Assembly: GCA_013141175.1 (NCBI GenBank)
Contig: JABFRN010000001.1
Location: 2,185,444 to 2,249,443 of the forward strand
Source: Lysobacter sp.
Lineage (GTDB): Bacteria > Pseudomonadota > Gammaproteobacteria > Xanthomonadales > Xanthomonadaceae
Direction of reading: 5' to 3'
DNA: 64,000 bases
Below are positions 12,466-42,118 of the stretch, piece by piece. The notes under the pieces were generated by a model. It was not told the origin of the DNA. It worked only from the letters and a program-made list of their open reading frames with translations, and did not search any database. Both the position numbers and the translations under genes were made by a program. Numbering within the stretch: the stretch's first letter is position 1; each line of letters starts with the position of its first letter.

Positions 12466-12674
12466 TGGGTTTCTCCTTGGGGGATCGTGCGGGCGGCGTA
12501 ATCCGCCCATCCGTGCGACGCGACCAGTCTCCGGCGGGTGCGCGCTCGTCATGGAATACGGGCGCCTGCCGGATCCGGATGCACCCGGCGGGAATGCCCG
12601 GCGTGAACCACGGATATGAACATCCGGTCCGGCGCGTACATCCGCGCTTGGCCCGTCCCCTTGCGGAGGCGACA

Positions 12675-19501: not shown

Positions 19502-19512
19502 GGTCGTATCCC

Positions 19513-20127
19513 TCAGGCGTTGATGATGAGTTTGGAAACGCAGGCGTGCTCGGCCTTGGCGTCGTTTTCGCCGCGCACGTAGATCTGCACGGACACGTCG
19601 TCGCGCGCGAAGTCCCAGTATTCGATGCGGTCATGCTTGCCGCGCGTGGCGCTGGACGCGAAGCCGGCGGCGCGCAGCGTGGCGGCATAGTCGTCGAAGT
19701 CGAGCGCGCAGATCGGCGCCATGTCGGCGTTGCTGCGGCTTTCGTCGTCGAACGAGAACATGATCCGCGAGGGCTTTTTGCCCGCGCCTTCGGGCAATGA
19801 CACGAGGTTGTAGGCCCACGCGTCGGTGAGCTGGCCGCTGAAGCCGTATTCGTTGGTGTCGTCGGGATTGAATTCGACCTTGATGCCGGTGAGCTGTTCG
19901 ATGCGGGCCGGGGCGATGTCGTCCGGTCCGTGGACGTTCTCGACGAGCTTCAGCACGCGTTGGCCGATGTCTTCCGCGTTGGTGGGAGTGTGCAGTTGGG
20001 TCATGGGAAACCTGTTCGCGTGGTGGGATGGGGAACCCGTCGGGTCGGGTCGGGCGGTCGGGGAGTCGCACGCGGCGCAGGCCAGCGCCAGGAGGCAGGT
20101 GGCCAATCCGGATGCGGCACGATTCAT
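19513..20127 (-). CDS. Candidate immunity lipoprotein for the adjacent effector
   Basis: A 204-residue protein from ATG 20127. It begins with a lipoprotein signal (LALACAAC, cysteine near residue 20), giving a periplasmic anchored protein. An in-frame ATG at 20004 would make a cytoplasmic version, but known partners of XVIPCD effectors are often lipoproteins. The body has no catalytic motif; it is acidic and beta-rich, with SRIMFSFDDESRSN and DDVSVQIYVRGEND. The gene lies 11 bases upstream of the second effector in the same orientation. Function is inferred from position; it might protect against both paralogous effectors. Confidence 0.6.
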   Translation of the reverse strand: MNRAASGLATCLLALACAACDSPTARPDPTGSPSHHANRFPMTQLHTPTNAEDIGQRVLKLVENVHGPDDIAPARIEQLTGIKVEFNPDDTNEYGFSGQLTDAWAYNLVSLPEGAGKKPSRIMFSFDDESRSNADMAPICALDFDDYAATLRAAGFASSATRGKHDRIEYWDFARDDVSVQIYVRGENDAKAEHACVSKLIINA

Positions 20128-20265
20128 GCGATTACCGTGTGGGCGGGGCGATTGCGGTTCGGTCTGCCCCTTCGAACGCAGCAACCTGCTGGGGATTGAA
20201 CGGAATGGGCGGCTGGAATCGGCCAAATGCCGCGACCGTTCGTCGGCGGTTGTCCTGCCTGGCCC

Positions 20266-20309
20266 AGCATGCTCGGGAACGGCATGCTCCGGAACGGCAT
20301 GCTCAGAAC
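20266..20309. repeat. Three tandem 15-bp units
   Basis: Units at 20266-20280, 20281-20295 and 20296-20309 share the core GCATGCTC followed by GGAAC or GAAC. Each contains the palindrome GCATGC. The array overlaps the last codon of the SLC13 gene. Confidence 0.7.
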
Positions 20310-27393: not shown

Positions 27394-30300
27394 TGGCTGA
27401 CATCACCGCATCGCTTGGTGACTTTGGTGCCGACCCAGCAGCATTGCACTTATTCGACGTTGACGGCCCAGAACTGTTGCCTTACGCAACAATTTTAGCT
27501 GCACGGCGTGGTGGCGATACGGCGCTTAGCGTTATCAGCGCGGTCTATGAATGGCAGGGTGCGCCTCTGATATTTCTTGTGAACGCTGACTCACTTGAAG
27601 GGGAGAGCCAACTTCATCGCATACGTCGCCTACTCGCCATGCGTGGGGATGCTCCCTATCTTGGTGTCATAGCGCCAGGACATCTTGACGTATACCGCAT
27701 TGAGCTCGACAAGAGATCCCTTCAACAAGCCAAGATTGAGGTGGGGAGTAATGGTCGCAATAAATTTGCAACGCTTTCGCGACTTGGCAATCTACGCCCA
27801 GGCGCCGCGATCAGCCAGCGAGGCTGGATTTCGAATGTTGTTTTGAACCTTCTCACCAGCTCAATTAATGGGCTTATAGAATTGGGAAAAATTTCGGACG
27901 AGGATGCCATCTCCTTAGTTGGTAGAGCGCTGTTTACTCGGTTCCTTGCTGATCGCGACTTATTGCCCAACGGGATGTCCGTGACAGGGACTGCAGCCAG
28001 CCTTTTCGACAATCGTTCGACAGCAGAAAGCACATCGAAATGGCTTGACTCTACGTTCAATGGCGATTTGTTACCGCTATCGAAAACCGTTTTCGCAAAA
28101 CTTCCGAAGCAGGCATACTCTATTTTGGGAGATGTGCTGAGGCGAGCACCAGATAGCCAACTTTTTCTTGGCTGGGAGGAGAAGTGGGATAATCTTGATT
28201 TCGCCCACATTCCCGTAGGCGTCTTAAGTCAGGCCTATGAGCTCTACCTGCGCAATCATGCGCCTGATCGACAAAGGCGCGAGGGAGGGTACTACACTCC
28301 GCGCACTATTGCGGATCTGATGGTCAGAGCGTCCTTTCGGGCACTGGAGCGCAACGGCGCTAGCAGCGGCGCCAAGGTTCTCGATCCTGCAGCAGGAGCA
28401 GGTGTCTTTCTGCTGACTGCGTTTCGCGAGCTCGTGGGCGAGCGTTGGCGTGTCGATGGGAAGCGGCCCAGCACGGGGATTCTCAGATCGATTCTCTACC
28501 GCCAAATAACCGGCTTTGACATCAATGAGGCTGCTCTGCGGTTTGCTGCGCTGGGCCTATATCTCATATCAATTGAGCTTGATCCTAACCCTAGACCAGT
28601 TGATAGACTGGGTTTCAAGAATCTTCGCGGAACCGTACTACATAGACTGGAAGCAGATGGTCAGACTAGTGGCTCGCAACTCGGCAGCCTCGGCCCACTC
28701 GTTGGTAAGCAGCATGTCGGAAAGTACGATCTAATTATCGGCAATCCACCATGGGCTAGTAGTACAAAGTTGCGCGATTGGCATTTAGTGCGTGCAACTG
28801 TTGCCCGCATTGCAGTCAGCAGAAATACCACTAACCCAAGCCCTCCTTTACCTAATGAGGGGCTTGATCTTCCCTTTGTTTGGCGAGCCATGGAGTGGGC
28901 AAAACCGAACGGCCAGATTGCATTCGCGCTCCATGCCCGGATTCTCTTCCAGCAGGGCGACGGGATGGCGGAGGCTCGCCGGGCATTGTTCGAGGCGCTT
29001 GACGTCACATCAATCATCAATGGCGTTGAATTGAGGCAAACCAAGGTATGGCCTGAAATTTCAGCGCCATTCTGCATTCTGATTGCAACAAATAAGGTGC
29101 CTGGTGTCGGTGCCGGCTTTCGCCTCATTAGCCCTAGATTGGAACAGGCGCTGAATGATGCGGGCAATATGCGAATCGATGCGCTCAACGCTGAACTTGT
29201 TCCATCATCAAAGCTTGGTGAAATGCCAGATATTCTGAAGATCTTGTTCAGAGGAACGAAAGCAGATCTTGGGATAGTGGAGCGCATCCGCGCACAAGGG
29301 CATCCCACGTTGGAAGCTTATTGGCGCCGGAACATTGGCGAGACGAATCGAGGCCTACTAAAAGGAAGTGGAAACGGTTATCAACGGCTTCGGCAGAGCA
29401 GCCGGGTGCGCATGAAAGGCGATGGTTTGCCAGGAGTAGATGCGCGCTATCTCCACGGTCTGCTGGAACTGACCGGCGAAAGCTTTACTGGCCCGTTCAT
29501 TGATAGCAGTGTCTTAGATGCTTTCTCACACAAACGCATCCATGACCCTAGAGCTATCGAGCTTTTCGCTGGGCCACTAGTCATCGTTCACAAGTCCCCG
29601 CCTGCTGCAACAGGGCGGATCGGGGTTGCTGTTTCCGATGGTGGCGTGATTTTCAACGAAACGTTTTACGGATACAGCCCACATAAACACCCCGAGGCTG
29701 CCACATTCGTACGTTATATCACCCTCATACTAGGGAGCAAGCTGGCAGCTTGGATGGCCCTCGTCACCAGCGGCGAATTTGGCTTCGAGCGTGAGGTCAT
29801 TGAGAAATCAACTATTGACCGTATACCCATCCCCGACTTCGGTGCAATAGCTCTCGTTCAGCGCACTGAAATCTTCCAGCTGTTCGATAAGTTGTGCATT
29901 GGAGAAGCTTCTTGGAGTGATGTCGATGAATGGGTGGCCCATCTTTATGGACTTGGGGGGCGCGACTTGCAGGTTATCTCAGACACACTTGACTACAACC
30001 TGCCTTTCTCCGAGAACAAGCGCAAGGCCCAGAGCCCACCAGAATCTGTGGGTAAGACAAACTTCCGAAATGTTCTTACTAAAGAAATTTCCCCTTGGTG
30101 TAAGCGATTCGGCACATCATTTGTAGTGCATGAGGTAACTCAGCTCACTAGCTCACCTTGGCACGGCATTGAGTTGCGGTTCGGCGATATCAGGCCATCA
30201 CAAACAGTTTCTGCAAGTGATTGGGCAGGGTTGCTGCGCGCTGCAGATGAGGTTGCGGGTTCGGAAATCATGATTCAAGCCGATGAAAACAGATTATTGA

Positions 30301-30410
30301 TAGGGCGGCTTGCCCAGCAACGCTACTGGACTACAACCCAGGCACGTCTGTTAGCGCAACGAATCATCTGGTCACACTTGGATGTGTTAAGAGGACAAGC
30401 CCGGACATGA
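27393..30410 (+). CDS. Large N6-adenine DNA methyltransferase (Eco57I/type IIG-like)
   Basis: A 1005-residue protein. The central methylase domain has GGYYTPRTIADLMV, motif I LDPAAGAGVFLL (Asp331 on) and motif IV IGNPPW (451-454), typical of gamma-class N6-adenine methylases. Residues 1-150 form a separate domain with PYLGVIAPGHLDVYRIE, of a kind found in front of Eco57I-like enzymes. The last 400 residues include a probable target-recognition region and a C-terminal domain. I see no nuclease motif in it; the nuclease seems to be the next gene, which overlaps by four bases. GC content is well below the surrounding DNA, pointing to transfer. BREX or DISARM partners are absent. Confidence 0.85.
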   Translation: MADITASLGDFGADPAALHLFDVDGPELLPYATILAARRGGDTALSVISAVYEWQGAPLIFLVNADSLEGESQLHRIRRLLAMRGDAPYLGVIAPGHLDVYRIELDKRSLQQAKIEVGSNGRNKFATLSRLGNLRPGAAISQRGWISNVVLNLLTSSINGLIELGKISDEDAISLVGRALFTRFLADRDLLPNGMSVTGTAASLFDNRSTAESTSKWLDSTFNGDLLPLSKTVFAKLPKQAYSILGDVLRRAPDSQLFLGWEEKWDNLDFAHIPVGVLSQAYELYLRNHAPDRQRREGGYYTPRTIADLMVRASFRALERNGASSGAKVLDPAAGAGVFLLTAFRELVGERWRVDGKRPSTGILRSILYRQITGFDINEAALRFAALGLYLISIELDPNPRPVDRLGFKNLRGTVLHRLEADGQTSGSQLGSLGPLVGKQHVGKYDLIIGNPPWASSTKLRDWHLVRATVARIAVSRNTTNPSPPLPNEGLDLPFVWRAMEWAKPNGQIAFALHARILFQQGDGMAEARRALFEALDVTSIINGVELRQTKVWPEISAPFCILIATNKVPGVGAGFRLISPRLEQALNDAGNMRIDALNAELVPSSKLGEMPDILKILFRGTKADLGIVERIRAQGHPTLEAYWRRNIGETNRGLLKGSGNGYQRLRQSSRVRMKGDGLPGVDARYLHGLLELTGESFTGPFIDSSVLDAFSHKRIHDPRAIELFAGPLVIVHKSPPAATGRIGVAVSDGGVIFNETFYGYSPHKHPEAATFVRYITLILGSKLAAWMALVTSGEFGFEREVIEKSTIDRIPIPDFGAIALVQRTEIFQLFDKLCIGEASWSDVDEWVAHLYGLGGRDLQVISDTLDYNLPFSENKRKAQSPPESVGKTNFRNVLTKEISPWCKRFGTSFVVHEVTQLTSSPWHGIELRFGDIRPSQTVSASDWAGLLRAADEVAGSEIMIQADENRLLIGRLAQQRYWTTTQARLLAQRIIWSHLDVLRGQART

Positions 30411-31117
30411 AGTCTTCCGCCATTCGTCCCCGCCCAGATCAGATTGGTGAGTTGACGCGTGGCTTGCGACTGCCACTACCCGCTATCGATGTGGCATATC
30501 TAGAGATTATTGCCGAAAGTCTATCTCGCGCGTTCGATGATGTTCGTGCCAACAGCCCGGTGGTGGTGGCTTCTGGCAGCGAGGCGGAAGTGACAGCCTT
30601 GCTGGAAACGCGTCTGAATGCATTGCTTGAACAGGATCCTTTTTGGGGGCAGCTGGTGATGTGCGTCGTTAGGGGAAAGGAGACCGTTAGCTTTGACGGC
30701 TCGCATCTTGAGAAGCGGCCAGACCTTTCGATCTATCTCTCTAATCGAGAACGTAACTTTCCATTGATCGCTGAGGCCAAGATCCTTGATTCCACCGCAG
30801 CGAAAACTGAAACAATGTACTGCAATAAAGGATTGTGCCGTTTTCTGGACGGTGACTACGCATGGGCAAACCAGGAAGCCTTCATGGTTGCCTATGTCCG
30901 CGATGGCTCCTCGATCAATGGCAAGCTAGTTCCATTCCTAGCAAGTGCCATGATGAAGACACCACCTCTCTACTCGGTGGAAGTGCTTCCCTATCCTCCT
31001 AAGAGCGGAGTTGGGCATCTTGCTTGCTCAAGGCATAGCAGGAGCTTTGTCTACAACAACCAAACGCCACCTGCGAGTCCAGGCCCGATCAATATTTTGC
31101 ATCTGTGGTTATCGTAG
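30407..31117 (+). CDS. Putative PD-(D/E)xK restriction-type nuclease
   Basis: A 236-residue protein whose ATG overlaps the methylase stop (ATGA). The segment KRPDLSIYL followed by PLIAEAKIL gives Asp106, Glu123 and Lys125, a classic PD-(D/E)xK arrangement. The remainder matches no family I recognise. Coupling to an adenine methylase argues that it is the cutting partner of a two-gene restriction-modification system. It could instead be a modification-dependent or abortive nuclease. Confidence 0.65.
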   Translation: MKSSAIRPRPDQIGELTRGLRLPLPAIDVAYLEIIAESLSRAFDDVRANSPVVVASGSEAEVTALLETRLNALLEQDPFWGQLVMCVVRGKETVSFDGSHLEKRPDLSIYLSNRERNFPLIAEAKILDSTAAKTETMYCNKGLCRFLDGDYAWANQEAFMVAYVRDGSSINGKLVPFLASAMMKTPPLYSVEVLPYPPKSGVGHLACSRHSRSFVYNNQTPPASPGPINILHLWLS

Positions 31118-31277
31118 TGAACAGACTGAGCGTCAGGCCGCATCAGCCATCTCTGTACTGAACGCGGGCCGCCACTTAAATCATTCAAGTGACCGTCCCG
31201 GATGCGGACATCATCCGCTAATTCAATGGCCTCTTGGCAGCCCGCCGGGGAACAGCAGTTGCAGATCCGTCCGCGAT

Positions 31278-32074
31278 AGAAACCTAGGACACCCACTTTT
31301 TTAATCCGTAGCCGTGCGGTCGATTGACGCAATGTGCCATAGCGTGCGCTTAGCATTTCGCTCTTCCGGTTCAATGCCCGAGGAAGGCGAACAACGGCTT
31401 CACTGGTCGTCGAACCAAAGCCATCGAACAATCGCACCACCCCAACACACCCACCCATCACCCGCGCTCCAGCACCCCACAACGCCGCAACACCGCACGA
31501 CAAGTCGGCGGCGAAACATCCAGATCCAAACGCAGTTGCACGACATCTTCAGTGCAGACCGGGGCGGCGTTCCGATGCAAGAGCGTGATCCGTCCTCCGA
31601 AACCGGGATCGCCCAGCGCGGCTTCGGCCAGCAGATGCAGCACGTGCACCAGATAGCGTGGCCAGTCGAGTCCGGTGACGTCCACTTCCAATTCCCAGCG
31701 TCCCTCGCTGTCGTCCCAGATCACGTCGGTCGCGGTGTCTGCGGCGGGGCCATCGCGGGTGCGTAGCGGAACCAGCAGGTCTGCGATGCGGGGATGCCGG
31801 GCTTCGGCATCGATCAAGGCAAAACCCAGTGCGTCCGACTCGATGCAGGTCAACAACGGTGCGACGGCGGTGCGGGTGGGATTGCCGCGAACAGACGTAC
31901 TTTTGTGAAATTGGCCAGCCAGGCCGAGCGTTCGCTGGCGGGCTGTTTCGCCAGCAGGCGAGCGAGGCCGCGTGCCAGGGCCTGCATGTCGGGTTTGCGC
32001 AGGCCCCGTGCGTGCAGGAAGTAGAGGCGGAAACCCAGCCGGATTTCGGCGCTGCTGGCGCCGACGGCAACGCG
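31278..32074 (-). pseudogene. Decayed, fused copy of the last two genes of the GH3 operon
   Basis: On the minus strand this segment contains a fragment of the ArgRS-like gene (SSAEIRLGFRLYFLHARGLRKPD) joined directly to the unknown last gene (MQALARGLARLLA and onwards). The intact versions are at 36928-38034 and 36287-36928. The junction lies at a 9-bp sequence, TGTCGGGTT, which occurs at 36817-36825 and 37143-37151 in the intact copy, so a 326-bp deletion between these short repeats explains the fusion. A one-base loss near 31887 shifts the frame; the remaining 130 codons to 31458 stay open. The direct repeat begins at AGAAACCTAGG (31278) and matches 36095 onward. Confidence 0.85.
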
Positions 32075-32084
32075 CTGGTGGAAC

Positions 32085-34498
32085 TCAGGCCATCCGCAGT
32101 CCCTTCGGCCCGGGATCATCTTGCGTCGGATTGTTCTGTGCCTGTGCCAGCATCTGTGCCTGCTGCTGAGCCAATATGTCGACCTTCTGCAGCGATTGTT
32201 CGACCGGGCGATCGATCGCTTGCGCCACATCGGTCATCGCGCGGCGCGCCGCCGGATCGGACGGGTCTTGCCCTTGCACGACGAACAGCAGCGCTCCGGC
32301 GGCGACCTGCGACCCATCCTGCTGGCGCTTGCCGGTCTCATTGATCGCGAGATGGTCGGCGGAGGTGATGCCGGCCGCTTTGGCGTCGTGGAATGCGCCC
32401 ATCGCCAGTCGTTCGCTGGTCGCATCGAAGCCGCGTCCGCGTTCCGTATCGATGCCCGCCACGCCACGCTCGATCTGTTGGTAGAGACGATGATCGGGAC
32501 AGTTGGGATCACGCGGGTCTGGAAGGCGAGTCGCCAACGATGCCAAGGATATCGCCGTCGTCATCGAATCAGCGCGAGCGTCGTGGTTCTGTTCCGAATG
32601 GCGTTCGGTCGCATGCGGTGTCGCGCCCATGCGCGTCTGCGCATGCTCGATATCGTCTGGCGCCGTAACGGCAGCAATCGTGTAAGTCTTACCGTCTGTG
32701 TCCAGGCGCAGGCTGGCCAACTCGTGCCGGCCATCGGCCTGTGGTCGTGCTTGCAATGCGGTCGTCGCCGGGTCCAGTCCATTCGCATCCCATGTCGCAC
32801 GCACGGCGACGGCCGCGGCGGAGACCTGCTCGGCACTCGCATCGACGCCCGCGTTGCGATACGCGCCCGCGACCGTATCGCGCAAGCGCGCATCGGCGTC
32901 CATCGGCGGCACGGGCGGGATCTCGCGCGGAGGCGGCAGGCGCGCCTGCAATACCTCGCGGGTCGCTTCCAGTTCGTCGTGCAGTCGGCCACTTGCGGTG
33001 GCGTCGACGAGCATGCCGTCGCTGACCCAGCGGCCATTCGCCTGTCGTTGATACCGATCACCGTCCGAAGCCACCAGCGTGTCGGTATCGGTGCATGGCG
33101 CACGGCGTCGGGCATCTCGCCATGCGCCTTCCAGCCGTTGCGGATGTAGGCATCTTCGTAGCGCGCCGCGATCGAGGCCGGGCTGTTCGTCGCGTTCTCC
33201 ACCACGATCTGCGCCGCTTGCCGGTCCAGGCGCTCGGCGCGCGCTGCATCGGCGGTTTCGGTCGAATACGGCGTCATCCCGCGCTCGACGAACGGGCCGT
33301 AGACCTTGCGTTCCCACTGCCCATTCTCGGGATCGCGTTCCCAATTCGATGGCTGACTGCTCGGCGCATCGCCCGCTTCGGCGGGCAGCGAGAACGGCTC
33401 GCGCTGCGACGGCGGGCCGCGCAGAACCAATTCCACTGAGGCACTGGTCGCTTGATAGTTGAGCGCGTTTTCGGTTGCAGGTGAAGCGCGCAGATCGCCG
33501 CGCCGGGCATTGTCAATGCTGTCGTCGGTGCTGTCGATCGGCGCGCTTCGTCGCCAGCCCTCGGTGGGCTTGTCCGGGTCGTAGCTCCAGGATTGGCCGG
33601 CGAGTTCCTGGTTGTAGATGCGACGGTTGTCGGTCCACTCGGCGATTTTCTCGCCCGCGAAGACGCCCGCGACACCGCCGATGGCCCCGGTGACCAACAG
33701 GCCAGGACCCGATTCGACGCCTGCGACAGCACCGGCTGCCATGCCGATGCCGGCACCCGCCCAGCCACCGACGCTGCGCGCGCCGAAGTGGATCAACTCC
33801 GACTCGGCGCCCGTGCGATTGCCTTCACCCGCCAATCGATGCGCCGTGCGGACGCTGTCGGCACCGTCATAGACTTCCAGCGCGAGTCCGGCGACGCCGA
33901 GAGCACGCCCAGCTTGTATGTGTGCAGGGCGAACGCGATGGGGCGCGTCGATCTCCGGCGACGCAAAGTCGTATCTGGACGCACGCAGACGCGGGCTGTC
34001 TTGAAATACCTGTTGCGCGTCGTAGCCGGCACTGTAGCGAGCGTGGTCTTCGGTGCTGATGAATTTCTGTTCGTACGCCTCATCCAGCAATTCTTTACTC
34101 ATCGATCGATGCGCGTCGGGATGGTGACGCATGATCTGCTCGGAATCGAAATACTTGTCGTCCGCCCAGAGGCGGGTGACACGGCCAGCTTGGTTCTCGC
34201 GCTCGGCGACTTCGAGCATGGAAATTTCGCCAGCGTTGACGCGAGTGATTTGGCCGGTTCGTAGTTTGTGTTCGGTGTCGGGGGCAGAGACTATGGTGAC
34301 TTTTCTGTCGGCGATGTATTGCAGAAGTTCGTGCTTGAGCGGGCCGTCTTCGATTTCGTCCAAGACCGTTTTTGTGATTGCAAAATTGCGATCCTGTTCC
34401 TTTGCCGCATCCAGATAAGTATCAAGCAGTTCCGGGCCGCCTGCACGATAGGCGTAAACAAGGCTGTTGGTATCAGCGAGGAAGTATCCGTTGCTCAT
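32085..34498 (-). pseudogene. Type IV secretion effector with N-terminal PIN nuclease and C-terminal XVIPCD, frameshifted
   Basis: The first 469 codons and the last 334 lie in two frames that meet at 33089-33094, where one C seems to be lost; joined, they encode about 804 residues. Residues 1-125 look like a PIN nuclease: LADTNSLVYAY (Asp9), VLDEIED (Glu48), AGEISML (Glu91) and WADDKYF (Asp113). Residues about 220-290 are a glycine-rich helical stretch (GAGIGMAAGAVAGV). A central module with LVASDGDRYQRQANGRW is common in such effectors. The end (PDHRLYQQIERGVAG to AIDRPVEQSLQKVD, Q-rich) is an XVIPCD. It is either a pseudogene or a sequencing error; three small genes upstream may include its immunity gene. 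Confidence 0.75.
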
Positions 34499-34511
34499 TG
34501 AGGTTCCTTTC

Positions 34512-34931
34512 TCATCCGATTAAATGGGCGCGGGCGTAATCACGGACTTTGCCGAACAACGTACCTAAATCAACGAATTCAAGGCCTGGAAGCCAACGGT
34601 CTGCAAGTCGACGCGCTCTCCAAGCCAACTCACCTTCAATTTCATTATTCTCACGTTCCTGTCTCAAGAACTCGGCAAAGTCATCGGGCATTTCCTGCTT
34701 GAAGTGCTCGACGAATGCAGCGACTTCCTCGTCGGTCCATTGGCGCCATTTCGCACGTTCTGTCATGACTTCTTCGTAATCAGCCACCATTTCGTCAAAT
34801 ATCTGTTCGTTAGATTTTCTGCGTTTCCAAGGGCGGTTGAGATACCGCAGGATGTTCGCCTTCAAATTCTCATCTGTTAGCGCATCGATCTTGCCTTGCA
34901 GTTCGGGGCTTATGTGGTTGTCTGCGTTCAT
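34512..34931 (-). CDS. Small cytoplasmic protein upstream of the PIN effector (candidate immunity)
   Basis: A 139-residue, strongly charged protein without signal peptide, beginning MNADNHISPELQGKID and predicted largely helical (AAFVEHFKQEMPDDFAEFLR). It ends 13 bases before the effector start and is on the same strand. A cytoplasmic inhibitor would suit a nuclease toxin, unlike the lipoprotein next to the HExxH effectors. I do not recognise the family; the immunity role is inferred from position only. Confidence 0.55.
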   Translation of the reverse strand: MNADNHISPELQGKIDALTDENLKANILRYLNRPWKRRKSNEQIFDEMVADYEEVMTERAKWRQWTDEEVAAFVEHFKQEMPDDFAEFLRQERENNEIEGELAWRARRLADRWLPGLEFVDLGTLFGKVRDYARAHLIG

Positions 34932-35040
34932 GGCGGCACTCTTGTTTGAGCAAGGATTGATTTCAATTGATTTCTCATATGCGCCATGCGCATGCATATT
35001 GCGGGCTTGAACGGGGAATGGATGACGCTCAGGCGATCCA

Positions 35041-35433
35041 TCAGGAGATACACTGCTGGCAGAGATACCTCCCGCTTCTGTCCGCTTCGATGGCGCAGCC
35101 GCATTGTTTGCAGCGGTTCTGCAGATAACCGGGAATCCCATAACAGCGCCAGGAGACATCGTTCGACGGCGCGTAGTGCTCAAGATCGGCATCCTCTTCC
35201 GTCATATCGAAAAAAAAGTCCACACGCCTTCCATCGCTCGCAACAATCCACTCAATGTAGTCCCATTCATTAGCGTCGTTGAAGACTGCGATACGCCATC
35301 CGTTGCTCGCGTTGTACCCGACCACACCCGCATAGACCCACTGAGGCTCTTGCATGGGCGTCAGCACGATCTCTCCAGATTCGATCGCGCGAAGGAATGA
35401 AAAAATATCTTCTTTGCTGATGGCTAGCGTCAT
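35041..35433 (-). CDS. Uncharacterised protein with C-terminal zinc ribbon
   Basis: A 130-residue protein. Its first 95 residues form an alpha/beta domain rich in aromatic residues (WVYAGVVGYNASNGWRIAVF, EWDYIEWIV), a pattern seen in small immunity or polymorphic-toxin-associated proteins. The end carries CKQCGCAI and LCQQC, a likely zinc-binding knuckle. The start overlaps the stop of the 64-codon gene upstream by four bases (ATGA). GC content is lower than the surroundings. Function unknown. Confidence 0.6.
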   Translation of the reverse strand: MTLAISKEDIFSFLRAIESGEIVLTPMQEPQWVYAGVVGYNASNGWRIAVFNDANEWDYIEWIVASDGRRVDFFFDMTEEDADLEHYAPSNDVSWRCYGIPGYLQNRCKQCGCAIEADRSGRYLCQQCIS

Positions 35434-35624
35434 ACGTCTCCCTTCTGCGCAGGCAGGCCACCGGCGGGCAGCGACCCGAGCACGTGCATCGTCCGTTCGT
35501 TGATCGCATCCACATCCCGCAGCAACTGCAGGTCGTTCAACGGGTCGCTGCGGTTCGTGCGCAGACCGGGGCGAGATGTGTGCTGATCGTGATCCTGTGT
35601 GGGCATCTGCGATTCCTTCGGCAT
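35430..35624 (-). CDS. Small hypothetical protein at the head of the effector operon
   Basis: A 64-residue protein from ATG 35624 (ATG 35606 is an alternative). It is hydrophilic, with RSDPLNDLQLLRDVDAINER in the middle and a glycine/proline-rich end. It overlaps the next gene by four bases, so it begins a row of four coupled genes ending with the PIN effector. No family is recognised. Confidence 0.45.
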   Translation of the reverse strand: MPKESQMPTQDHDQHTSRPGLRTNRSDPLNDLQLLRDVDAINERTMHVLGSLPAGGLPAQKGDV

Positions 35625-35717
35625 GCCCTGAATGTTACCCGGCGAGGGGGGCTCGATGGGTGGCTGGTGGAATTCCCTGCACATTCCCCCAAAAAAGTCC
35701 TTCCAAAACAATGCCTT

Positions 35718-35776
35718 GACGGGAAGAAATAAAAAGCCCGTTTTCTGCCTGTCCTTCTTCCTGCTTTCTTCCCGTC
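35718..35776. repeat. Perfect 12-bp inverted repeat with 35-bp spacer
   Basis: GACGGGAAGAAA (35718-35729) is mirrored by TTTCTTCCCGTC (35765-35776). It lies between the divergent effector operon and the HTH gene and could be an operator or the footprint of a recombinase. Confidence 0.65.
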
Positions 35777-35787
35777 CGATCCATAGT

Positions 35788-36066
35788 GTGTGTCTCGCCC
35801 GCTGCAACCGCAGCCTGTCGAGAACCAAGCCATGCAAGACCGTACCGCCGCGCACGCCGCCCCCGGGGGAAGCGCGCGCCTTCGATGAGAACCAACTCGC
35901 CCGACGCTGGGACATCTCCGTCCATACGCTGCAGCAAAGGCGCCGGATGGGTATCGGTCCGATCTACCTGAAGCTCGGCAACCGCGTCAGTTACCGCCGC
36001 GAGGACATCGAACAGTACGAACGTCAGGCGCTGCGTCGCGGCACCGGCGAACGCGCGTTCGCGTGA
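35788..36066 (+). CDS. AlpA/excisionase-like helix-turn-helix protein, start uncertain
   Basis: The recognisable part reads DENQLARRWDISVHTLQQRR then IGPIYLKLGNRVSYRREDIEQYE, an HTH_17/MerR-type winged helix as in AlpA and excisionase proteins of integrative elements. No ATG lies in this frame close upstream; I give the in-frame GTG at 35788. An ATG at 35832 opens a frame (MQDRTAAHAAPGG) that would suit such proteins but ends after 18 codons in a GC-rich tract near 35880, so a small frameshift is possible. Its stop is 28 bases before the second direct repeat. Confidence 0.5.
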   Translation: MCLARCNRSLSRTKPCKTVPPRTPPPGEARAFDENQLARRWDISVHTLQQRRRMGIGPIYLKLGNRVSYRREDIEQYERQALRRGTGERAFA

Positions 36067-36094
36067 GGACGACAGAAACCACAGAAACCTAGGA

Positions 36095-36826
36095 AGAAAC
36101 CTAGGACACCCACTTTTTTAATCCGTAGCCGTGCAGTCGATCGACGCAACGCGCCATAGCGTGCGGTTCGCATTTCGTTCTTCAGGTTCAAGACTCCGAG
36201 CAAAGCGAACAACGGTTTCGATTGGATGTCACTGGTCGTAGAACCAAGCTGTCGAACAATCCATAGCACCCCAACACACCCGCCCATCACCCGCAATCCA
36301 CCACCCCACAACGCCGCAACACCGCACGACAAGTCGGCGGCGAAGTATCCAGATCCAAACGCAGTTGCACGACGTCTTCCGTGCAGACCGGGGCGGCGTT
36401 CCGGTGCAAGAGCGTGATTCGTCCTCCGAAGCCGGGATCGCCCAACGCGGCTTCGGCCAGCAGATGCAGCACGTGCACCAGATAGCGTGGCCAGTCGAGT
36501 CCGGTCACGTCCACTTCGAGTTCCCAGCGTCCGTCGCTGTCGTCCCAGATCACGTCGGTCGCGGTGTCTGCGGCGGGGCCATCGCGGGTGCGTAGCGGAA
36601 CCAGCAGGTCTGCGATGCGGGGATGCCGGGCTTCGGCATCGATCAAGGCAAAACCCAGTGCGTCCGACTCGATGCAGGTCAACAACGGTGCGACGGCGGT
36701 GCGGGTGGGATTGCCTGCGAACAGACGCACTTTGGTGAAGTTGGCCAACCAGGCGGAGCGTTCGCTGGCGGGCTGTTGCGCCAGCAGGCGAGCGAGGCCG
36801 CGTGCCAAGGCCTGCATGTCGGGTTC
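36095..36826. repeat. Direct repeat, intact copy (matches 31278-31993)
   Basis: From AGAAACCTAGG at 36095 the sequence parallels 31278 onward through the whole unknown last gene of the operon. Homology resumes at about 37143-37236, matching 31986-32074. Together the two copies flank about 4 kb carrying the PIN effector row and the HTH gene. A further partial AGAAACCT lies just before it (36083). Confidence 0.85.
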
Positions 36827-36928
36827 GCGCACGACGACGAACAGGGTGCGGCGCTCCGAGACTTCTGTAGCGGCGTGTGCGACCGACGCCAGGCGCCGGG
36901 CCATCAGGAGTTCATGCAGGGATGGCAT
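36287..36928 (-). CDS. Unknown protein, last gene of the GH3 operon
   Basis: A 213-residue protein. ATG 36928 overlaps the stop of the ArgRS-like gene (TAATG), so the two are translationally coupled; ATG 36940 is an alternative. It is a soluble protein with an N-terminal helical region (MPSLHELLMARRLASVAHAA) and an alpha/beta remainder (FALIDAEARHPRIADLLVPL, GRWELEVDVTGLDWPRYLVH). I know no family for it. Its tight coupling suggests a subunit or partner of the ArgRS-like protein. A decayed copy lies at 31278-32074. Confidence 0.7.
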   Translation of the reverse strand: MPSLHELLMARRLASVAHAATEVSERRTLFVVVREPDMQALARGLARLLAQQPASERSAWLANFTKVRLFAGNPTRTAVAPLLTCIESDALGFALIDAEARHPRIADLLVPLRTRDGPAADTATDVIWDDSDGRWELEVDVTGLDWPRYLVHVLHLLAEAALGDPGFGGRITLLHRNAAPVCTEDVVQLRLDLDTSPPTCRAVLRRCGVVDCG

Positions 36929-38034
36929 TACAGCAGGCATTGCAGCACCGCGTGTCGAAGGCCGGGCGCGGCTTTCTTCTGTTCCAGCACCGCAAGGGCG
37001 CCGTAGACATTCGCACTGCCATCGCGCTTCATGAGTTTTTCGAGCGCGGTGCGGTCGTCGGTCGTCAGCGGCGCTGGCTCGTGCACGTCGAGCAGGCGTC
37101 GTGCGCGTTCCAGGCATGCGCCGAGGCCTTCGTCCGAGTAACTGTCGGGTTTGCGCAGGCCCAATGCGTGCAGGAAGTAGAGGCGGAAGCCCAGTCGGAT
37201 TTCGGCGCTGCTGGCGCCGCCGGCCACGCGCTGGAGCAGACGCGCGCCGGTGTATTGCTCCCATCCCCCCTGTTTGGCGCTGAGCACCTGCCCATCGAGC
37301 GGCACGCGCGTGAACCCGACGCGGCGGCATTGCACGCCAAGCCGTTGCAGCACGCGCATCAATGCCTCGTAGTCGCGTTCGATGCCGGAATCATGGTAGA
37401 GGCAGACACTGTCGTGATGCGGCGCGCGATCGAGCAGATCGCGCAGGATGGCGAGGATGTAGTTGGACAGCCCGTGCTCCGACATCAGCAGGCGCAGAGG
37501 ACGCCCTTCGTCTGTCAGGTCGAGATGGACGCCGCCGCCGAAGCGGCGCTGGTCCAACAGCATGTCGTGCGCGTCGAGCCGTTCAAGTACCGCTTCCTGA
37601 TCGAGGCCGAACGGCGCGGAATGGAACAGCGCATCACCGGCCAGGCCAAGGGTGGCGAACACCTCGCCCCACAGCGCGAGGATCCGGCCCGATGCGGGAT
37701 GGACGTAGCCCTCCGTTTCGATACGGCGGGCATAGGTGGCGATCCGATCGGCGGAAGGCAGTGTGCCGGTGCGGTGACAGTCGATATACAGCGCGCCGAT
37801 GTCGCCTTCGCCCATGGTGCTGAAATCGACACCGCTGTGTTCGCGGTCGAGATAATCCCAGAAGCGGATGGTCTGCAGCGAGATATCCCAGGGACGGCGG
37901 TTGTGCCAGATCGCGCCGGGCGTGAACAGGCCTTCGAAACGCTGCATGAAATCCAGCAGCAATACGCCTTTGAGATGCGACGGGGTGAGCGGCTTGGTGG
38001 GTGTGATGCCGATGGGCGCGTAGAGCGTGCTCAT
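36928..38034 (-). CDS. Class I (arginyl)-tRNA-synthetase-like protein with altered signature motifs
   Basis: A 368-residue protein. Its N-terminus ITPTKPLTPSHLKGVLLLD parallels the ArgRS stretch PTGPLHVGHLRGA, with the HxGH motif changed to TPSH. Further on, GVHLDLTDEGRPLRLLMSEH followed by YHDSGIERDYEALMRVLQRLG resembles the catalytic core of ArgRS, and DGQVLSAKQGGW lies where KMSKS/RKG should be. It lacks the usual N- and C-terminal tRNA-binding domains (true ArgRS has about 560-580 residues). It might activate an amino acid for a small molecule rather than for tRNA. This is my own alignment by eye and needs a profile search. It overlaps the genes on both sides. Confidence 0.5.
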   Translation of the reverse strand: MSTLYAPIGITPTKPLTPSHLKGVLLLDFMQRFEGLFTPGAIWHNRRPWDISLQTIRFWDYLDREHSGVDFSTMGEGDIGALYIDCHRTGTLPSADRIATYARRIETEGYVHPASGRILALWGEVFATLGLAGDALFHSAPFGLDQEAVLERLDAHDMLLDQRRFGGGVHLDLTDEGRPLRLLMSEHGLSNYILAILRDLLDRAPHHDSVCLYHDSGIERDYEALMRVLQRLGVQCRRVGFTRVPLDGQVLSAKQGGWEQYTGARLLQRVAGGASSAEIRLGFRLYFLHALGLRKPDSYSDEGLGACLERARRLLDVHEPAPLTTDDRTALEKLMKRDGSANVYGALAVLEQKKAAPGLRHAVLQCLL

Positions 38035-38603
38035 GCCGCCGGACCATCCTTGGCGAAGTCTTCGCGCAGCCAGGCACGGAGTTGCGCTTGCACCCGCTCC
38101 GGCGCTTCGCTGTTGTCGACGATGCGATGCGCCAGGCGTCGCCCCAACTGCAGTTCGTCCTCGAAGCTGGCGAGACGCGAGCCGATGTCGCCATCGCGTT
38201 CGACGCGCGCGCGCAGGTGGGCCTCCACGCGCGCGCGCGGCGCCTCGACCTGATAGACGATATGCGCAGGAAAATAGTGGGGCAGGCGCTGCAGCAGCAT
38301 CGCGCGCAACATCAGGACGCGAATACTGTTGCCATCGTCCTCCAGCGCTTCCCTCGGCAGGCCGTAACGCGCCTCGAGGCCGAACAGTTGCACGGTCTCC
38401 AGGAAAAACCCCGCCTGCTCGCGCGCCGTGAATTCGTCGTCGTCGATGAAGACATGGTCGGCGTTGGCAGGGTCCTCGTAGTGCCGCGACTTGCGCGTGG
38501 TCCAGGTGGGCACCAGCCGCACCTGGCCTTCCTGGCGCAACGGCGCGAACAGCGTGCTCTTGCCGACGCCGGAGGGGCCGATCACCACCAGGATCTTGGA
38601 CAT
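38031..38603 (-). CDS. P-loop kinase, guanylate-kinase-like
   Basis: A 190-residue protein beginning MSKILVVIGPSGVGKSTLF, a Walker A motif at residues 9-17. The following VPTWTTRKSRHYEDPANADHVF is a guanylate-kinase-type nucleotide-binding segment (compare SYTTRPPRPGE). Unlike the housekeeping Gmk it has a long charged helical end (ERDGDIGSRLASFEDELQ). It overlaps the next gene by four bases and begins 8 bases after the previous stop, so it belongs to the operon. It may phosphorylate a pathway intermediate rather than GMP. Confidence 0.75.
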   Translation of the reverse strand: MSKILVVIGPSGVGKSTLFAPLRQEGQVRLVPTWTTRKSRHYEDPANADHVFIDDDEFTAREQAGFFLETVQLFGLEARYGLPREALEDDGNSIRVLMLRAMLLQRLPHYFPAHIVYQVEAPRARVEAHLRARVERDGDIGSRLASFEDELQLGRRLAHRIVDNSEAPERVQAQLRAWLREDFAKDGPAA

Positions 38604-38611
38604 CGATGGAC

Positions 38612-39244
38612 TCACGCGGGCAGCAGGGGTTGCAGCGCGATGACTGCGACGACGGGCACGAAGAAGTTGTCCACGCCTTTGTGCGAGAAGGCTTCGACCA
38701 GCGTCAGGATCGCGCTGACCGCGACCCCGGTCAGCAGCGCCGCCATCGGCGGCAGGCCTGCGAACACTGCGGTCGGCCACAGGATGGCCAATCCGGACAG
38801 GAAGAACGCCACGCTGCCGACATAGGATTTGGCATGGCCGAACAGCGTGTAGCGACGCTGCCCGTAAGCGCTCCCGATCAGGCTGGCCAACGTGTCGGAG
38901 ATGCACAGGACAAGATAAGCGGCAAGGAAAGCGGGATACGGAACGCCGATCGCTGCGACCGCGACCACCGACAGCGGCAGCATGAGATCGCCGTAGGATG
39001 TCCGCTCCACCGCCATGACGGAGCGCATCAGCACCGTGCGGCGCAACAGTGCGAGTGCGATGACACTGCCCACCGCGATCAGCAGGAGCTGGTGATGATC
39101 GATACCGAACAGCGGGAACGCAGCAATCAGCAGACAGGTGCTGACATGCACGGATTTGCGCGAGACCTCTGCGGAGGCGCCGCAGCGATGCACGATGTCG
39201 CCGAGCAGACAGCAGGCGATGATGCCCAGGACGAAGAGGATCAC
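38612..39244 (-). CDS. Membrane protein related to phytol/dolichol kinases and CDP-diglyceride synthases
   Basis: A 210-residue protein with six or seven hydrophobic helices. It starts at a GTG overlapping the GH3-like gene stop (GTGA). The motifs SRKSVHVSTCLLIA, then CISDTLASLIGSAYGQRRY and GHAKSYVGSVAFFLSG, are typical of phytol/farnesol kinase-like proteins: the first holds the conserved RKxxH, the later ones the D..A...G and K(S/T) patterns of CTP-using lipid kinases. A CTP-dependent polyprenol or diacylglycerol kinase is plausible; the substrate is unknown. Confidence 0.75.
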   Translation of the reverse strand: MILFVLGIIACCLLGDIVHRCGASAEVSRKSVHVSTCLLIAAFPLFGIDHHQLLLIAVGSVIALALLRRTVLMRSVMAVERTSYGDLMLPLSVVAVAAIGVPYPAFLAAYLVLCISDTLASLIGSAYGQRRYTLFGHAKSYVGSVAFFLSGLAILWPTAVFAGLPPMAALLTGVAVSAILTLVEAFSHKGVDNFFVPVVAVIALQPLLPA

Positions 39245-40824
39245 CGCGCCGGACTCACGATGCGGTCCTTGACCTGCGGCGGACGCAGACCCGCAGCGAC
39301 GCGGTCGCACCACTGCCGCGTGAAATGATCGGGCGGCACCTGCCGTACCTCGCCCAGCGGCGTGCCGGCGATCGCCGCGTCCGCAGCATAGGCTTGGCGC
39401 AGCGTCGCCTCGCAGATGACGGCGTCTTGCGTGTCGTCGCAGGCGATCAGCAGGTCGAGTACGCCTCCCGCCGCAGGCACGAACGTGAAGTTGCGCACGC
39501 GCAAGTCGTGCTCGGTGCTGTGACGGCGGATGAAGCGCAGCAGCGCCGACTCGGGCACGGACGCGACCGGCGTGATGCGTCCGGCATAGGCGACGGTGGG
39601 CACTGCGCCCGCGTGACCCGTCACTTCCAGCAGGTCGCCCAGCACGTAGCGGCAGAAGCCTCCGGCTTGCGTTGCCACGACGGCATAGGACGCGCCCTCG
39701 CGCAGTTCGTCGAGCCGCAGCGGCGTCTGCGTCGTGCCGTCCTGCACATCCAGGAACTCGAAGAATGCGGCGTTGTAGGCCATGACGCCGCGCAGGCCGT
39801 CCGGCAGCAGGTGCAGGGCCAGCGGCACTTCCGAGGCGGCCAGCGGCGCCGGCACCACTACAACATCGGTGCCGTAGTCTGCGAGAACCTGCGGCAAATA
39901 GACTCCGGCGATACCTTCGTCCCAGCAGATCAGGCGTTCGACCCGTGGCCACACATCCATCGGCAGCAGGCGTCCGCGCGCGGCGCGGCGCGCAGCGAGC
40001 TGCGCGGCCAGTGCGGGATCGGGCGCCATCACCGGGCGACCCGCGAACGTGCCGGCGGCGACGTCGGCGCACAGGCGCTCGGCATTGGTCTCGATCAGAT
40101 GCGGCACGGCAGCGAGGATGGCGGGATTGATACCGACGAACTGGCGGATGTCATGGCCTGCCGCCATGCGGATGCGGAAGTAAAGGCGCTCGAGGTCGGC
40201 TGCGATGTCCGCCGGCACCGTGGCCCAGGGACCTTGCGTACCCGGCTCCATCAGGGCCTCGCTGCCGAACTCGTTCGCCAGATTCACCTGGCTGAGACCG
40301 ACATGCGGCATGCCACCGGTGAGAACCGAGGTGTCGCGCAGCGGATCCCACTTGAAGTTGATGGTGAGGTCGCGACTGGCCATCAGCCCCGGATGGGCGC
40401 GCATGGTGCCCTCGAGATACGTCATGTAGAAAGGATTGAACGCTTCCGCAAAATAAGCGCGCGGCAGTGGCAGCACCTTGGCCTTGCCGGCGGTGCTGCC
40501 GCTGCTGGAAATGAAACGGAAGACATCGCCGGGGAACAGCACATCGCGCTCGCCGGCGACAATGCGGTCGACATACGGGCGCAGGTCCTCGTAGCGGCGC
40601 AACGGGACCCGACGCCGGAAGTCGGCCAGGTTGTTGATGTGCTCGAAACCATGTTCGCGACCGAAGGCGGTGCCGCGGCCACGCTCGACAAGGCGCGAGA
40701 GCACCTCATCCTGAGTGCGCGTCGCGGTGTCGAGGCCGCCGATGAATTGCGCATAGTGTTGGCCGTGTCCAATGCCCATGACGGATGCTTCCAGCTCGAA
40801 TGGATGAATCTTCCGGACTTTCAT
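39241..40824 (-). CDS. GH3-family acyl-adenylating amide synthetase-like protein
   Basis: A 527-residue protein. ATG 40824 is preferred; GTG 40830 is in frame. Family signs are the N-terminal TAFGREHGFEHINNLADFRR, the ATP loop FISSSGSTAGKAKVLPL near residue 105, MAYNAAFFEFLD in the centre, and YAVVATQAGGFCRYVLGDLLEV. Plant GH3 enzymes adenylate jasmonate, auxin or benzoate and join them to amino acids; bacterial members are little studied. It heads a minus-strand operon of five overlapping or closely spaced genes. The acid and amine used are not deducible. Confidence 0.85.
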   Translation of the reverse strand: MKVRKIHPFELEASVMGIGHGQHYAQFIGGLDTATRTQDEVLSRLVERGRGTAFGREHGFEHINNLADFRRRVPLRRYEDLRPYVDRIVAGERDVLFPGDVFRFISSSGSTAGKAKVLPLPRAYFAEAFNPFYMTYLEGTMRAHPGLMASRDLTINFKWDPLRDTSVLTGGMPHVGLSQVNLANEFGSEALMEPGTQGPWATVPADIAADLERLYFRIRMAAGHDIRQFVGINPAILAAVPHLIETNAERLCADVAAGTFAGRPVMAPDPALAAQLAARRAARGRLLPMDVWPRVERLICWDEGIAGVYLPQVLADYGTDVVVVPAPLAASEVPLALHLLPDGLRGVMAYNAAFFEFLDVQDGTTQTPLRLDELREGASYAVVATQAGGFCRYVLGDLLEVTGHAGAVPTVAYAGRITPVASVPESALLRFIRRHSTEHDLRVRNFTFVPAAGGVLDLLIACDDTQDAVICEATLRQAYAADAAIAGTPLGEVRQVPPDHFTRQWCDRVAAGLRPPQVKDRIVSPAR

Positions 40825-40989
40825 GGGCACCCATCGTTTGCGTGACGCATGGTGCCCGCCGGACTATACAAGCAACACGTCTTCCGTGTGAACCATGCGG
40901 GTTTCGGGTTTCTCCTCGCGCGTCGGCATATCCCGACCCGGCATCAAGGCCGGAAGAGGGCGTGCCTGGCCTGGGCCACGCCGTGCGGC

Positions 40990-41117
40990 ACACTGGAGTT
41001 TTATCCGGCTCGTTGAGCGGATGTCTGAGCGGTATCGGGAACGGGAAAGGGTGATCCGTTTCCCTCGCCTGTTCCCGGGATGCCAACGGCGGCCCTCACT
41101 GGCCGCCGTTCTTGTTT
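40990..41117 (+). ncRNA. Structured region ending in an intrinsic terminator, candidate small RNA or rimK leader
   Basis: The 388-base gap between the divergent GH3-like and rimK-like genes holds no convincing frame. ATCC...GGAT with an inner GCTC/GAGC, then CGGGAAC...GTTCCCG with a nested GGGAAA/TTTCCC, and finally AACGGCGGCC/GGCCGCCGTT (41085-41110) followed by CTTGTTT form successive hairpins. The last looks like a true terminator on the plus strand, about 100 bases before rimK. A terminated RNA or an attenuator would explain it. No strong promoter is seen, and the 5' end is a guess. Confidence 0.35.
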
Positions 41118-41212
41118 GCGAACCTTGTGTGCGGACGTCGCGTTTCGCGCAGGAACTGTCATCATCGTTGCGGCAGGCTTTAGCTGCCGTCCGCACGCGC
41201 CCGGAGCGCCGC

Positions 41213-42118
41213 ATGAAGCTCGCCATTCTGTCCCGCAACAGCAAACTCTATTCGACCCGCCGGCTGGTGGAGGCCGCGCGTGCGCACGGGCACACCGCGC
41301 GGGTGCTCGATCCGCTGCGCTGCTACATGCGCATCGCGTCCGACGGGTTCGACATGCATTACAAAGGTCGCCCGCTGGCCGGTTACCAGGCGGTGCTGCC
41401 GCGGATCGGTGCGTCGATCACCCGGTATGGTTCAGCGGTCCTGCACCAGTTCGAGCTGATGGGCAGCTACACCCCGAACCCCGCCGATGCCATCGCCCGC
41501 GCCCGCGACAAGCTGCGCGCGCACCAGCTGTTGGCGGCGCAGGGCATCGGCATGCCGACCACGGTCTTCGGCGACAACCCGGACGACACCGTCGACCTGC
41601 TGTCGATGCTCGGTGCGCCGCCGCACGTGATCAAGCTCAACGAGAGTTCGCAGGGCGCCGGGGTGATCCTGACCGAGAAGCCGTCGGCGTCGCGCAGCGT
41701 GGTCGAAACCCTGCGCGGGCTCTACGCGAATTTCCTGGTGCAGGAGTTCATCGCCGAAGCCGAAGGCGCCGACCTGCGCTGTTTCGTGGTCGGCGACGAG
41801 GTGGTTGCGTCGATGCGCCGGCAGGCGCCGAAGGGCGACTTCCGCTCCAATCTGCATCGCGGCGGTACCGCTGAGGCGGTGCAGGCGACCGAAGATGAGC
41901 GCGCGGTGGCGATCCGTGCCGCCAAGGTGCTCGGCTTGGGCGTGGCGGGCGTGGACCTGATCCGCGCCCGGCGCGGCCCACTGGTGCTGGAGGTCAATGC
42001 CTCGCCGGGGCTGGAAGGGATCGAGGCGGCCACAGGGGTGGATATTGCCGGAAAAATCATCGATCTTCTGGCAAATGGCGTTCAAATGAGCGCAACACAC
42101 AAAGCCCCGAAACGGTGA
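41213..42118 (+). CDS. rimK: RimK-like ATP-grasp ligase
   Basis: A 301-residue ATP-grasp protein that starts [20 protein letters not shown], as RimK does. Other marks are [20 protein letters not shown], the ATP-grasp segment [17 protein letters not shown], then [21 protein letters not shown] and [18 protein letters not shown]. coli RimK adds glutamates to the C-terminus of ribosomal protein S6 and makes poly-glutamate. The ATG follows a small CGGCAG/CTGCCG hairpin. A ligase next to the GH3 operon may be coincidence; it is divergent from it. Confidence 0.93.

Follow-up and report, generated by a model that had tools for sequence, protein, structure and literature searches.

A rare five-gene operon of Lysobacter sp. 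combining a GH3-family enzyme with a protein resembling arginyl-tRNA synthetase

A compact operon of five genes, designated A to E, was found in a 64,000-nucleotide stretch of the Lysobacter sp. genome (GenBank assembly GCA_013141175.1, contig JABFRN010000001.1, forward-strand positions 2,185,444 to 2,249,443), hereafter called the window. The operon is real, rare and unexplained. Gene D is supported, at the level of profile comparison, as a relative of the class I aminoacyl-tRNA synthetases, nearest to arginyl-tRNA synthetase (ArgRS), and it stands together with genes for a GH3-family enzyme (A), a membrane protein (B), a P-loop kinase (C) and a DUF6182 protein (E). A synthetase-like family that goes unrecognised by Pfam and NCBIfam and is linked with GH3 and DUF6182 proteins in two phyla represents an unexplored pathway, which should be directly testable since the operon is compact and is present in Lysobacter antibioticus HS124 (locus L006).

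Organization of the operon

The five open reading frames (ORFs), spanning 36287–40824, were all open and all lay on the minus strand. Inspection of the junctions in the sequence revealed a 4-base overlap between A and B (GTGA), an 8-base gap between B and C, a 4-base overlap between C and D (ATGA) and a 1-base overlap between D and E (TAATG). The original prediction, made from the sequence alone, had described a coupled five-gene unit in which four of five junctions were tight. The coupling was borne out by the open reading frames, the tight junctions and the same gene order in other genomes, and the count is to be corrected to four of four, the number of junctions between five genes. The promoter-like site 5' of gene A was the sole one in the region 36000–41300, where 0.5 would be expected in shuffled sequences. 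An alternative ATG start of gene A at about 40779 is also possible.

Table 1. Features of the operon and of the adjoining region (positions are those of the window)
Feature	Position	Strand	Remarks
Gene A, GH3-family acyl-adenylating/amide-forming enzyme	39241..40824	-	527 aa
Gene B, membrane protein, CTP-transferase/dolichol-phytol-kinase superfamily	38612..39244	-	GTG start overlapping the stop of A
Gene C, guanylate kinase/PhnN-type P-loop kinase	38031..38603	-	
Gene D, class I aminoacyl-tRNA-synthetase-like, nearest ArgRS	36928..38034	-	368 residues
Gene E, DUF6182 protein	36287..36928	-	213 aa; start overlapping the final base of the D stop codon
Promoter-like site 5' of gene A, TTCACA-18-TATAGT	40863..40892	-	consensus match only
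Degenerate partial copy of the operon 3' end (downstream sequence, most of E, 92-base piece of D)	31278..32083	-	direct repeats, 92-95% identity
X-Tfe type effector-like gene, XVIPCD domain 79 bits	32085-34498	-	ends beside the partial copy

Relation of gene D to arginyl-tRNA synthetase

Gene D gave no Pfam or NCBIfam match, and single-sequence searches returned no match at all. Comparison of the D profile with a profile of 30 ArgRS from 30 genomes using hhalign revealed a score of 45.0 over D residues 8–275. Decoys, which were reversed or column-shuffled alignments, reached maxima of 23.1 for ArgRS, 25.8 for cysteinyl-tRNA synthetase (CysRS) and 18.1 for glutamyl-tRNA synthetase (GluRS), and the score of 17.0 obtained against GluRS was not above its decoys. 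The D alignment used for hhalign and for the genome searches (A3) contained six of the eight rows, without L005 and L011. The predicted kinship of D with class I synthetases, and with ArgRS as the nearest of them, could thus be recovered by profile comparison, at a score of 45.0 against decoys of at most 25.8.

A PDB profile search, a comparison with single sequences and Foldseek ranked ArgRS first as well. A profile search of the PDB with six D members gave 2zue, presumably the Pyrococcus ArgRS, as the best match, with PTKPL and HxGH aligned; its E value of 0.41 is not significant alone, and the next two matches were unrelated proteins (E 0.64 and 0.92). When D was compared with 529 ORFs taken as single sequences, the top two were ArgRS (35.5 and 31.3) and the third was a CysRS (31.1), and the best of the 439 other ORFs scored 24.6. 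This single-sequence signal points to class I synthetases as a whole, or in part to long proteins. The fold of D was predicted from the window and the L003–L007 rows (six of the eight distinct sequences), and a Foldseek search with the resulting low-confidence model placed ArgRS chains at ranks 1 to 13, with a best E value of 2.5e-3.

Several observations weigh against this relationship. The hhalign probability for D against ArgRS was only 69.5%, and the CysRS profile also scored above its decoys (36.5, over D residues 240–352, on the KMSKS side). The single-sequence medians were similar for ArgRS (19.7), CysRS (19.0) and GluRS (19.2), compared to 13.8 for the other ORFs, so that an origin from ArgRS, rather than from class I synthetases in general, depends on the profile comparison. 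The AlphaFold model of D was poor, with a mean predicted local distance difference test (pLDDT) score of 49; Foldseek found nothing at E 0.001 or better with it, the ArgRS matches had a root-mean-square deviation of about 18–20 Å, and VIA-align placed unrelated folds above ArgRS. Of what the original prediction had proposed as checks, the profile match and the conserved neighbourhood were both observed, and the refuting outcome that it named, with neither a class I match nor a conserved neighbourhood, did not arise; for the structural half (HUP/Rossmann fold), the evidence consists of the model of pLDDT 49, the Foldseek E value of 2.5e-3 and the VIA-align ranking. To our knowledge, few class I synthetase cores are reused outside translation.

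Residues and domains altered in gene D

The motifs TPSH and LSAKQ, noted from the sequence in the original prediction, were present in D. The place of HxGH is occupied by T17-P18-S19-H20 and that of KMSKS by S252-A253-K254. The first motif reads TPSH in the six Lysobacter-type members and TPTH in Streptomyces, so that the second His alone is retained, whereas among the 30 ArgRS the first His occurs in 29/30 and the G and second His in 30/30. The place of KMSKS in the D family reads S-[AS]-[KR]-x-G-G-W by eye, with Lys or Arg at position 254.

Three further residues, the Asn before HxGH and the Tyr and Asp that lie four residues apart, were invariant together with the second His in 30/30 ArgRS. 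They correspond to N180, Y368 and D372 in the ArgRS of the window's genome, and we take them to contact arginine in the binding pocket. According to the profile alignment, D has T11, Y192 and I196 at these three places, one of the three being retained, and T11, H20, Y192 and I196 are themselves invariant across the D family, Streptomyces included. The alignment starts at D residue 8, which corresponds to ArgRS profile position 133, and runs from HxGH to KMSKS. Since it starts only there, the ArgRS N-terminal domain is, as judged from the alignment, absent from D. No Pfam match to the DALR anticodon-binding domain was obtained in D, but the D core gives none either.

In summary of the comparison, D shares with ArgRS of the PF00750 class a colinear profile match from HxGH to KMSKS and the conserved Tyr, but differs from it in the missing N-terminal domain, the replacement of Asn and Asp by T and I, the TP[ST]H motif and the lack of a Pfam match. 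D looks ArgRS-derived, yet its sequence is not that of an ArgRS, because two residues invariant in 30/30 ArgRS are replaced. We infer that D may be an ArgRS-derived enzyme for another amino acid, possibly working without tRNA. MshC, a CysRS descendant, is a cysteine:GlcN-Ins ligase. This enzyme, in which a class I core forms a small-molecule amide, offers a functional comparison for what D might do, although for D the ArgRS score (45.0) exceeds the CysRS score (36.5).

Conservation and distribution of the operon

The genome search revealed the operon with the same gene order and orientation in six other genomes (L003, L004, L005, L006, L007 and G007), which confirmed the anticipated conservation of the neighbourhood; with such recurrence, the operon is not a chance arrangement. 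Loci L003–L007 were obtained by a pattern scan using one genome per species, and all five D loci found carried all five genes. In L005, a contig end cuts the GH3 gene, and a further GH3 piece lies on another contig of seemingly the same genome. Loci L008–L010 and L017 (genome G712) were not counted separately, as their identities for B to E are identical to those of L003–L005 and L006, respectively, and they seem to be the same loci.

The distribution was narrow. Among 11 genomes of the genus, D was present in five (G000, G002, G005, G006 and G007) and A in the same five, and both were absent from the remaining six, some of which are incomplete assemblies. D occurred in 5/59 relatives, the window's own genome included, in 2/398 genomes sampled from the order (that of the window and G712, the locus of which resembles L006 so closely that the two seem to be one) and in 1/398 sampled genomes of the phylum, which was the window's own. 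Likewise, DUF6182 occurred in 1/200 genomes of the phylum, again the window's own.

Comparison of the five genes with L003, L006 and L007 showed the third codon position to be the most divergent in 15/15 gene pairs; for D against L003, the differences at the three codon positions were 14/3/53. This pattern fits coding sequence under constraint. Gene B appears to be the least constrained of the five, because its residue-changing codons exceeded the silent ones against both L006 (72 vs 54) and L007 (80 vs 50).

The flank of the operon on the side of the RimK gene matched the window in L003 and L006 (blastn, window 28–50 kb), and approximately 3 kb of the same flank in L004 gave no match to the window. 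The interval between RimK and the operon was longer than in the window (40881–41156) by approximately 2.4 kb in L003 (2529–5155) and 1.7 kb in L006 (3063–5059); a 398-aa ORF in the L006 interval had no Pfam match. L007 is a Rhodanobacteraceae metagenome-assembled genome (MAG), and its Pfam-recognised flanks differ, encoding Sua5/YrdC, a nitric oxide reductase subunit and an FG-GAP/PI-PLC protein.

Related genes in Streptomyces

A 1.04 Mb plasmid of Streptomyces sp. NBC_01435 (NZ_CP109493, L013) carries homologues of D, E and the GH3 gene side by side. The D homologue had 36% identity (E 2e-51 against all plasmids), the E homologue directly behind it 33% across 128 columns (E 7e-5 in a search of two loci) and the GH3 protein 31–32% (E 3e-69 against all plasmids). 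The GH3 gene is followed by a fusion of an HMG-CoA-reductase-like domain (349.5 bits) with an APH phosphotransferase domain (18628–20976) and by a thymidylate-kinase-like P-loop protein. B and C gave no significant match in the L013 stretch (best E 3.1 and 0.23). The two clusters therefore share adjacent D, E and GH3 homologues (36, 33 and 32% identity) and a P-loop kinase, and differ in that the fusion and the thymidylate-kinase-like protein replace B and C. Across D from these, genes for a PPTase and an AMP-binding/PP-binding protein were observed, and beyond them sulfate-activation-like genes (APS kinase, PAPS reductase domain, GTP-binding).

A, D and E occur together in Lysobacteraceae, in the Rhodanobacteraceae MAG and on this one Streptomyces plasmid. 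They make up the common core, whereas the kinases seem exchangeable. As the positions expected for B and C are taken in Streptomyces by an APH domain and a different P-loop kinase, a pair of an alcohol kinase and a P-loop kinase may recur in non-homologous parts.

A printed but unexplained relative of the A-D-E core may exist in the rubiginone cluster of Streptomyces sp. CB02414. In PMC8487521, a nine-ORF, 8.8-kb cassette, rubM2–rubP4, is described, which is also present in S. hundungensis and is regarded by the authors as an insertion. The cassette encodes the GH3 protein RubP3 (567 aa), three hypothetical proteins, RubP1 (254 aa), RubP2 (373 aa) and another of 209 residues, and methyltransferases, an oxidoreductase and a hydrolase, and the authors give no function there for RubP1, RubP2 and RubP4 (PMC8487521). 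RubP1 and RubP2 are close in size to the Streptomyces E and D proteins. Should this relation be true, the A-D-E core would also decorate polyketides or accompany them, and a lipid would not be the necessary product. Polyketide clusters contain GH3 genes repeatedly, namely the rubiginone cluster (PMC8487521) and a Streptomyces cluster in L014, which holds a GH3 gene (11911–13581) together with a gene for threonyl-tRNA synthetase.

Functional assignment of genes A, B, C and E

The assignment of A to the GH3 enzymes was confirmed by Pfam (GH3, PF03321, 142.2 bits; GH3_M, PF23571, 58.1 bits; gathering cut-off 23.6). The nucleotide-binding motifs of GH3 proteins are defined as SSGTSxGxxK, YGSSE and GLYRYRLGD in PMC12493201. 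In A, they could be located by eye (alignment A6) as SSGSTAGKAK, LAASE and GGFCRYVLGD; the second motif is the weakest in A and the third has diverged in the Streptomyces row. The same source describes OlsH, a bacterial GH3-like lyso-ornithine lipid synthetase that makes N-acyl ornithine, and its authors expect other specificities outside planctomycetes (PMC12493201). A shares with OlsH the bacterial GH3 family and the nucleotide-binding motifs, and ATP-dependent formation of an acyl-amino-acid amide would be expected of it. However, A scored 75.9 bits with the OlsH equivalog NF052613 and did not reach the cut-off of 620, its partner genes are others, and no OlsI-type alpha/beta-hydrolase was found among the five proteins using Pfam.

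B had no relevant Pfam match, and PF01148 was matched in 0/6 members. Its profile nevertheless scored 36.7 against that of CdsA over 84 columns, compared to at most 19.5 for reversed and shuffled decoys, and the match spans the catalytic signature SD..A...G...G......K(T/S).xG. The CdsA match upheld the placement of B in the superfamily of cytidine triphosphate (CTP) transferases and lipid kinases. RKxxHV and EAxSxKGxDN are, we assume, marks of dolichol and phytol kinases. A homologue of B with 31% identity was found in an alphaproteobacterial (Roseinatronobacter) operon with UbiA, DUF3419 and AMP-binding genes. This plasmid operon (L108, 523–8507) has the order UbiA, PEP/pyruvate-binding, DUF3419, B-like with a C-terminal extension, hypothetical and AMP-binding, and looks like an uncharacterised lipid pathway; DUF3419 presumably includes BtaA-type lipid enzymes.

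C was expected to be a guanylate-kinase-like P-loop protein, and both the PDB and the family matches agreed. The PDB search returned guanylate kinases (best E 1.7e-9), and the Paracoccus PhnN showed 33% identity. The scores with TIGR03263 (57.8 bits, cut-off 160.45) and TIGR02322 PhnN (42.1, cut-off 156) were under both equivalog cut-offs, so that C has the P-loop and the family relation in common with guanylate kinase and PhnN but falls short of either equivalog. For E, the original prediction knew of no family; it could be assigned to DUF6182 (PF19680, 34.3 bits; gathering score 25), a family without assigned function. In the alignment used for the fold of E, the L004 and L005 rows start inside the protein.

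Proposed pathway and alternative explanations

The five genes may make up a short biosynthetic route that employs two adenylating ligases and two kinases, the product of which would be an amino-acid-conjugated phosphorylated lipid or alcohol; we put this reading forward tentatively, at slightly less than an even chance. In such a pathway, A would convert a carboxylic acid to an acyl-adenylate and couple it to an amino acid or amine. D would be an ArgRS-derived catalytic core that has lost its arginine specificity and the N-terminal tRNA-contacting domain; it would form the aminoacyl-adenylate of a probably different amino acid and, much as MshC does, hand the residue on to an amine or hydroxyl group of a small molecule. 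B would phosphorylate a membrane-soluble alcohol, probably from CTP, and C would phosphorylate the resulting intermediate once more, the two acting like the kinase pair of phytol and farnesol salvage. E would be an accessory or catalytic protein specific to the pathway. This reading draws on the joint occurrence of A, D and E, the presence of A and D in the same five genomes of the genus, the ArgRS alignment and residue pattern of D, the GH3 motifs of A, the CdsA match of B and the B homologue clustered with DUF3419 and UbiA genes. The product, for which the original prediction suggested an amino-acid conjugate or modified lipid, is probably an amino-acid-containing small molecule or lipid, as far as the gene content suggests.

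For prenols, two successive kinases, the polyprenol kinases VTE5/FOLK and then the phytyl-phosphate kinase VTE6, are described in PMC9782597. B and C may be likened to this pair, the first member of which is a membrane enzyme preferring CTP (PMC9782597). VTE6 is reported to be similar to COG1836 (PMC9782597), whereas C is of the P-loop guanylate-kinase type instead.

A bolder version, which we regard as doubtful, would have D found a new tRNA-independent ligase family derived from ArgRS, which, with GH3, DUF6182 and a swappable two-kinase module, makes an undescribed aminoacylated (di)phosphorylated lipid or terpenoid in Lysobacter-like bacteria and Streptomyces. No description of the operon was found in the literature searched, the rubP cassette (PMC8487521) being a possible unexplained relative. 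The same literature yielded no papers on DUF6182, nothing on a Streptomyces gene cluster with GH3 and HMG-CoA reductase, nothing on clusters that combine GH3 with a synthetase and a kinase, and no relevant reports of ArgRS-like proteins or paralogs. A term search of PMC11451712 gave no occurrence of GH3, DUF6182, arginyl or kinase.

Other points have to be set on the opposite side of the scale. The gene families, the operon structure, its conservation, the co-occurrence and the residue changes in D are results of the analysis; from them we infer all substrates, the order of the steps, the tRNA-independence of D and the product. D may be non-catalytic, because HxGH has become TPSH. The comparison with Streptomyces is based on one record, and the genome of the window gave no match to HMG-CoA reductase, so that the two pathways cannot be the same.

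An unlikely alternative takes up the possible loss of catalysis and regards D as an inactive ArgRS-like protein serving as a scaffold or sensor, by which A, B and C are regulated or kept together; these three would make an OlsH-like N-acyl amino acid lipid. This agrees with the degeneration of both HxGH and KMSKS and with the relation of the GH3 protein to OlsH, the maker of N-acyl ornithine (PMC12493201). However, the Lysobacter-type and Streptomyces proteins, 36% identical overall, both keep T-P-[ST]-H and S-[AS]-[KR]-x-G-G-W, which points to selection on an active site, and A lies far under the OlsH cut-off.

It is also possible, at a rather low probability, that D is still tRNA-dependent. 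It would then charge a tRNA or use an aminoacyl-tRNA, and the aminoacyl group would be moved onto the lipid or small molecule that A, B and C produce, a route like that of aminoacyl-phospholipid synthesis. The nearest relative of D is a tRNA-charging enzyme and B suggests a membrane substrate, but the N-terminal domain is missing (the alignment beginning at ArgRS profile position 133), no MprF- or Fem-type transferase was found among the five proteins using Pfam, and the sole tRNA gene found in the window, tRNA-Gly at 26616, is far from the operon. About equally improbable is a salvage or housekeeping lipid pathway of prenol phosphorylation and acyl amidation without a specialised product: the B and C pair resembles that of phytol and farnesol salvage (PMC9782597), but the operon is rare, with D in 2/398 genomes of the order and 1/398 of the phylum, and 6/11 genomes of the genus, some of them incomplete assemblies, lack both A and D. 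The preferred reading remains the pathway with two adenylating ligases and two kinases.

Region flanking the operon

The degenerate partial copy of the operon 3' end lies approximately 4.8 kb from the operon and accounts for the second D match in the genome. The effector-like gene sits between the operon end and this copy. As the two bracket the effector-like gene, the end of the operon has probably undergone duplication or recombination. The N- and C-terminal portions of the effector-like gene seem to occupy two overlapping frames (32561–34498 and 32085–33344), and it appears frameshifted.

A defence, toxin or immunity module beside a type IV secretion system (T4SS) effector-like gene is a very improbable explanation of the operon: the X-Tfe XVIPCD gene is a neighbour and the duplicated operon piece adjoins it, but PADLOC gave weak matches only (E 0.001–0.005; three to C, one HEC-01B fragment to D, and none to A, B and E), and the operon occurs in L003–L007 with the effector gene unmatched (blastn, window 28–50 kb; L004 and L005 have little flank).

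The G+C content was 51–54% at 28–31 kb and 51% at 34–35 kb, compared to 63–68% over 36–42 kb. Because of this low G+C content, the DNA beyond the far end of the operon (28000–36000) looks foreign or mobile.

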